From Bugula neritina (Eukaryota; Bryozoa; Gymnolaemata; Cheilostomatida; Bugulidae), in contig OZ037767.1 in assembly GCA_964035545.1 (NCBI GenBank), positions 10,893,081-10,957,080 on the forward strand: a stretch of 64,000 nucleotides of DNA, written 5' to 3'. Below, one piece after another: positions 3,959 through 4,384 of this stretch. The translations under genes were made by a program, and so were the position numbers. Below the pieces are notes generated by a model, which saw only the letters and a list, made by a program, of their open reading frames with translations, did not search any database and was not told the origin of the DNA. The first letter of the stretch is position 1. Each line of letters begins with the position of its first letter.

Positions 3959-4060
3959 GAGTCACTTGAGCACTCTGGCTTGAGTTTACACACCTTTTAA
4001 ATATGCTTTAGTAAAACTATAAGTTTTACTATTGCGAAGGTGTGGGCCATGGTACTCTGT

Positions 4061-4107
4061 TCTGTGCTGATGAGGGGACAAATCCCGAAACAGCTGCTGT
4101 CCACAGA
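4061..4107 (+). ncRNA. Hammerhead ribozyme, type I, copy 1
   Basis: Stem I is TCTGTG (4061-4066) paired to CACAGA (4102-4107). The core CTGATGA is at 4067-4073. Stem II is GGG (4074-4076) with CCC (4084-4086) and a 7 nt loop. GAA is at 4087-4089. Stem III is ACAG (4090-4093) with CTGT (4097-4100) and a CTG loop. The cleavage-site C is 4101. Every invariant core nucleotide is present and all three stems are perfect, so self-cleavage after 4101 is predicted. Confidence 0.93.
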
Positions 4108-4331
4108 TTGAGATAATACGCTTTCATTTAATGCTCAGCAATGACATTAAATGATTGAGCACTCTCACCATGGTCACAAACTCAAGCTGCTAGCATTTTG
4201 CAATGCTCGTGACTCCTAGGTGACCCCTAGAGTCACTTGAGCACTCTGGCTTGAGTTTACACACCTTTTAAATATGCTTTAGTAAAACTATAAGTTTTAC
4301 TATTGCGAAGGTGTGGGCCATGGTACTCTGT

Positions 4332-4378
4332 TCTGTGCTGATGAGGGGACAAATCCCGAAACAGCTGCTGTCCACAGA
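4332..4378 (+). ncRNA. Hammerhead ribozyme, type I, copy 2
   Basis: Identical to copy 1 at +271. The predicted cleavage is after C4372. With copy 1 it bounds a 271 nt monomer. Confidence 0.93.
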
Positions 4379-4384
4379 TTGAGA

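Follow-up and report, generated by a model that had tools for sequence, protein, structure and literature searches.

Insertion ends of a hammerhead retrozyme family in the bryozoan Bugula neritina suggest how its copies may enter chromosomes

The window, by which we mean the whole 64,000-nucleotide stretch of Bugula neritina DNA that was analysed, carries on its plus strand an insertion of 1.59 units of a 271-bp repeat at 3957-4386. Delimited by self-comparison and sequence, this insertion has 2-3 nt at each edge in common with flanking (AT)n tracts, which a repeat scan places at 3838-3958 on the 5' side and at 4384-4441 on the 3' side. Sequence and unit alignment resolve one full 271-bp unit (3959-4229, plus strand) followed by a partial second unit (4230-4386, plus strand; unit positions 1-157) that terminates at the 3' edge of its ribozyme. 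The original prediction had described a tandem 271-bp unit in two direct copies. Copies at this offset are indeed present, as 3957-4115 and 4228-4386 are identical at 159 of 159 nucleotides, but the locus does not contain two full units, the second amounting to approximately 0.59. Motif matches, with stems read from the sequence, identify a type I hammerhead in each copy, at 4055-4112 (predicted cleavage bond between 4101 and 4102) and at 4326-4383 (between 4372 and 4373), both on the plus strand; the predicted bond lies between unit positions 143 and 144. As had been anticipated, no open reading frame describes the element, with 3957-4386 containing none of 120 aa or more and thus having no coding capacity at this threshold.

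A third, solo copy, overlooked in the original prediction, lies between AT tracts at 30878-30955 (plus strand), spans unit positions 80-157 with identity at 78 of 78 nucleotides, and contains a complete hammerhead at 30895-30952 (plus strand; motif match and sequence). It terminates at the same base as the 3957-4386 insertion, with a different (AT)n tract following. Neither the (TA)n sites nor the fixed 3' end had been noticed originally. The solo copy lies in sense orientation within a 307-nt intron (30853-31159) flanked by an EGF-like and a cysteine-rich exon, whose splicing yields a single open frame, and the pre-mRNA would therefore carry a complete hammerhead. Elsewhere in the window we observed a threonine-rich frame with 18-bp tandem repeats (19372-20151) and, both on the minus strand, a gypsy-type LTR retroelement (22457-27890) whose several frames encode a zinc knuckle, protease, RT, RNase H and integrase, and a weak heme-peroxidase match (48377-48742; E 2.5e-5, below the curated cut-off).

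The 40-nt ribozyme motif (CTGATGA...GAAA...GTC/CACAG, with the slash at the predicted cleavage bond) occurs in the 64-kb window at 4067-4106, 4338-4377 and 30907-30946, against a shuffled expectation of 0.02, and three matches were reached in 0 of 100 shuffles. Read from the sequence, stem III is formed by ACAG/CUGU with a 3-nt loop, while stem I is comprised of UCUGUG/CACAGA, an internal loop and then CUC/GAG; this internal loop and a 5-nt loop II are both present. Because stem I is the open stem, the ribozyme is of type I and not type III. Every core base is found in each copy, together with stems I-III of the canonical type I fold, as originally proposed, although the description of all three stems as perfect needs amending, since stem II (GGGG/UCCC) includes one G-U pair. 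Among 136 aligned ribozyme regions, CTGATGA is exact in 125 and GAAA in 125. The ribozyme accumulates 0.0174 changes per site compared with 0.0292 elsewhere and ranks 39th of 214 windows, so it is not the best conserved part of the element, and selective conservation of the ribozyme was set aside as weak.

Thermodynamic folding of the isolated ribozyme does not favor the active structure, as the 58-nt motif has a minimum-free-energy fold (-14.9 kcal/mol) other than the active one (native -10.1 to -11.6 kcal/mol), and the local fold of a 66-nt ribozyme stretch carries no weight, given that shuffles fold equally well (z -0.25). Rfam reported no hammerhead across the window at the gathering threshold and none between 3700 and 4700 at E<=10, where the many weak matches are ascribed to chance in the AT repeats. 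A covariance-model search had been suggested as a check on the family; RF00163 (Hammerhead_1) reports no copy in the window or genome, and control genomes were likewise silent. Since the Rfam hammerhead model misses the entire family, routine annotation would miss it as well, which agrees with the expectation voiced at the outset.

We searched the 215.8-Mb Bugula neritina assembly, in which the window occupies C3:10893081-10957080, with motifs from the element, using reversed motifs as controls. The 40-nt ribozyme motif occurs in 503 copies with up to 3 mismatches, the exact 27-nt core in 212 copies and the exact 3' junction into (AT)n in 203, with each reversed control returning 0; BLAST of the unit against the genome gave at least 135 matches (40 of 693 candidates scored). 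A lack of other genomic copies, which the original prediction had named as counting against it, is clearly contradicted by the 503 motif copies and 212 exact cores. The many copies are dispersed in the host genome, and the 271-bp repeat, within the 150-450 bp typical of such elements, forms dimers to multimers with arrays of up to more than 4 units. Its GC content is 0.43, in keeping with the low values (<45-50%) of retrozymes, and its RNA is predicted to be strongly self-paired: the folding energy of the 271-nt circle is -98.0 kcal/mol compared with -60.8 kcal/mol (sd 4.7) for 200 shuffles, none of which is as low (z -7.9), and 72% of the predicted circle fold is paired. The active ribozyme does not appear in the minimum-energy fold. 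The family is dispersed, lacks coding capacity and looks mobile, and in unit size, low GC content, tandem arrangement and ribozyme type it matches published metazoan non-LTR retrozymes. This supports the initial reading of a non-autonomous retrozyme, and assignment of the family to the metazoan non-LTR retrozymes is, on sequence grounds, well supported. Searches for relatives outside the genome returned 0 in viral contigs and 0 in prokaryote genomes, and the literature searched contained no report linking bryozoa with a hammerhead ribozyme. At least 25 of 88 loci have flanking repeats in common, indicating that the copies are not all independent. One repeat family, found at L083, L053, L063 and L064, has (TA)n edges, is partly palindromic in L083 and hosts several retrozyme copies; it is possibly a separate mobile element.

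For the insertion footprint, every exact core on chromosomes C1 and C2 was taken, chosen blind to its ends, giving 48 insertions at 47 loci. The exact-core requirement leaves very short pieces out of this sample, and L118, the C8/C9 loci and L092, which has no unit match, also lie outside it; L039, L092 and L097 are without a match to the window unit. The unit of L072 served as reference; the joint of the window unit includes a private change, and its exact sequence occurs once in the genome. The 3' ends of 45 of the 48 insertions fall at unit positions 156-158, with the remaining three at 149, 151 and 63, and when loci having flanking repeats in common are excluded, the 3' end lies at 154-158 in 36 of 39. 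Alternating TA, which occurs at 0.5% of window positions, adjoins the 3' end in 38/48 insertions and the 5' end in 29/48, the threshold being missed by 10 and 19 flanks, respectively; in the same reduced set, TA is present on the 3' side in 30/39 and on the 5' side in 22/39. The unit contains three 4-nt TA runs, at 43-46, 60-63 and 155-158, which 3' ends use 0, 1 and 45 times. Because the 3' ends are almost confined to one of three such runs, pairing with TA is not sufficient to select the site, and the start site would appear to be set by position in the unit. The single L099 insertion, whose 3' end lies at the TATA of unit positions 60-63 and not beside the ribozyme, represents a possible alternative start site.

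The 5' ends are scattered, with a peak at 152-160 that comprises 14 of the 48 insertions (1.6 expected if uniform). Joins on this side show TA microhomology at many unit positions, the TA overlap averaging 2.30 nt compared with 0.75 nt simulated (n=44; 0 of 5000 resamples) and 1.80 nt once the 152-160 peak is removed (n=30; 0 of 5000 resamples). Insertion lengths range from 53 to 833 nt, with 23 shorter than one unit, 12 equal to one unit and 13 longer, and among these 13 the excess over one unit is often non-integer. No insertion stops at unit position 143 or begins at 144, the two sides of the cleavage bond (0 of 89), and all 48 of the footprint sample cross it, indicating that the template was either uncut or re-ligated. 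Where (TA)n lies on both sides it hides any target-site duplication, and loci without 5' TA show no convincing one.

Units within a single insertion were compared in 24 arrays having at least 2 complete 154-nt segments, the C3-C7 loci being represented in the comparison by 13 arrays. Units of the same array differ by 2.2 changes on average; with units reassigned at random the value is 5.9, and 0 of 2000 such reassignments gave one as low. Of the 24 arrays, 6 are free of any internal difference. At 8 family-informative columns, only 6 of 192 array-by-column cells are mixed compared with 74 expected, and all 6 belong to L059, a chimera of two subfamilies and the only such array of the 24. The 57 within-array differences divide into 32 that are private, 11 found in one other locus and 14 found in two or more, such that 25 of 57 recur at other loci. 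All but a few of the 49 non-terminal continuations past the ribozyme run straight into the next unit, producing seamless joints. Later homogenisation could add to the likeness of units within an array. In addition, L058 and L065, which lie in matching flanks and both have their 5' end at position 112, differ in unit number, which suggests that array length can change after insertion.

We also looked for a helper enzyme in the genome. The GIY-YIG model returned one match, in a frame that we take to be SLX1, and detected no GIY-YIG Penelope-like partner, its sensitivity for Penelope nucleases being uncontrolled. An RVT_1 scan of the genome, in which 150 of 2124 candidates were scored, recovered many long open reading frames, from which a helper could not be singled out. 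Next to the insertion, 3401-3832 represents the 3' end of a LINE family whose tail is GA-rich and for which 40 genomic matches were listed, the others being 72-87% identical. In the 14 LINE 3' ends examined among the 40 matches listed, the GA-rich tail is followed by varied sequence, one (L132) continuing into TA/TATG repeats and one (L131) into a reverse-oriented retrozyme; with no (TA)n habit across these 14 ends, the LINE was set aside as a poor candidate for the helper. A genome search for a tail-sharing partner ending in GATTGAG-(AT)n, which gave 1 match against 0 in the control, was also discarded.

A dispersed family, a fixed 3' end, (TA)n sites, scattered 5' ends, seamless arrays of more than one unit and near-identical units within arrays are read directly from the genome. 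We favor, with a probability of roughly 0.6, an interpretation in which a non-LTR retrozyme is copied by target-primed reverse transcription of its circular RNA from a fixed internal start, sometimes for more than one lap. A genomic retrozyme copy would be transcribed, the hammerhead would cut the RNA between unit positions 143 and 144, and the 271-nt monomer would be ligated into a circle, by analogy with other animal retrozymes, for which the cleavage and circularisation steps are known. A reverse transcriptase supplied by another element would then act at a nick in a (TA)n microsatellite that primes on the circle, with priming at the AUAU of positions 155-158, directly downstream of the ribozyme. 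Copying would proceed round the circle for anything from a fraction of a lap to several laps, and the 5' end would be joined to the target partly via TA microhomology. The circularity of the template, the activity of the ribozyme and the enzyme are the parts of this cycle that we infer. More tentatively, the insertions may be a genomic record of target-primed rolling-circle reverse transcription in which an enzyme from outside the GIY-YIG Penelope-like elements takes the hammerhead itself as the 3' tag of a circular RNA, starts at the 3' edge of the hammerhead on a nicked (TA)n microsatellite and continues for more than one lap; if so, the ribozyme would both make the circle and mark the start of copying.

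The circular template must be weighed against a linear one, since this 3' end could also arise from linear RNA tailed with (AU)n. If a copy and the (TA)n that follows it were transcribed as one RNA, the (AU)n tail of the uncleaved product would pair with another nicked (TA)n, with no circle involved, and such long pairing would account for both the (TA)n target and the fixed 3' end, each being inherited. This route is consistent with the uncut cleavage bond in 48 of 48 insertions of the footprint sample and with the finding, in the consulted parts of PMC11167929, that ribozyme mutants of the anole Penelope-like element still inserted, the main template being unprocessed RNA. However, transcripts would have to escape a complete ribozyme, each insertion of more than one unit would require a pre-existing source array, and the first origin of the seamless joint would be left without account; a circle also explains more simply why unit-length insertions peak at the TA joint and why 23 of the 24 arrays look copied from one template. 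We therefore regard linear read-through as rather unlikely.

Less probable still is spread at the DNA level, in which a satellite-like repeat moves and expands by recombination between (TA)n tracts and by unequal crossing-over, with the ribozyme as a passenger. The unequal unit number of L058 and L065, despite their same flanks and 5' end at position 112, and the flanking repeats common to at least 25 of 88 loci are in line with such exchange, but exchange via flanking (TA)n would leave (TA)n between units, whereas the joints are seamless, and the pairing of one invariant with one scattered end is a mark of reverse transcription and not of recombination. It is highly improbable that the copies are decayed ribozyme-bearing repeats of a Penelope-like element and not an independent retrozyme. 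Such elements are tandemly arranged, contain type I hammerheads, cleave AT-rich DNA and initiate reverse transcription within the RNA (PMC11167929, parts consulted), but stem III is full here and minimal in the Penelope type (PMC7761336, parts consulted), a genome pattern search for a second hammerhead family gave 3 matches compared with 1 in the control, 2 of the 3 being variants of the present ribozyme, and the single GIY-YIG match in the genome reads as SLX1.

The Bugula element is of a known kind, and its insertion ends are unusually informative. In the consulted part of the literature, the return of animal retrozymes to chromosomes, through primed circular RNA copied in tandem, is a published hypothesis and not a demonstrated step. 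The Bugula family provides a sharp footprint, comprised of a fixed start site, a preferred target, a scattered other end and one-template arrays, and the sites at which copies start and stop suggest how such elements may enter chromosomes from circular RNA. It also extends the metazoan non-LTR retrozymes to a bryozoan. As described in the consulted parts of Cervera and de la Pena 2020 (PMC7229834), Penelope-like elements occur in all metazoans analysed and are the favored helper; if a GIY-YIG Penelope-like element is truly absent from Bugula neritina, this helper would be removed and another reverse transcriptase indicated.

Comparison with known systems places the element in context. Like plant LTR retrozymes (PMC4918200), it has ribozyme-bearing repeats and predicted circular RNA intermediates, but the plant elements carry type III hammerheads within long terminal repeats, larger units, a primer-binding site, a polypurine tract and 4-bp target duplications, whereas the hammerhead of the Bugula element is of type I. 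The anole Penelope-like element (Frangieh et al. 2024, PMC11167929) resembles it in its AT-rich target, internal start of reverse transcription, hammerhead near that start and tandem arrangement; however, the anole element encodes its own reverse transcriptase and GIY-YIG nuclease, whereas the Bugula element encodes nothing, having no open reading frame of 120 aa or more, and the anole start site lacks homology with the DNA that is cut, whereas the Bugula start site has a 4-nt TA run in common with its target. By sequence reading, the ribozyme has the same topology as Rfam Hammerhead_1 (RF00163), yet the model reports no copy and none reaches its gathering threshold.

The closest correspondence is with the metazoan non-LTR retrozymes, which have repeats of 150-450 bp and strongly self-paired circles of about 170-400 nt (PMC7229834). 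They differ in that no co-existing GIY-YIG Penelope-like element was detected in Bugula neritina. Their target-site duplications, when present, exceed 4 bp; at Bugula loci with (TA)n on both sides any such duplication would be hidden. Insertion nearly always beside (TA)n and the single fixed 3' end at the ribozyme are features of the Bugula family that the consulted parts of PMC7229834 do not note. In common with the elements described there, the Bugula family carries a type I hammerhead whose stem III is genuine, is built from 271-bp units that lie dispersed as dimers to multimers, has a GC content of 0.43 and an RNA predicted to pair strongly with itself, and contains no long open reading frame.
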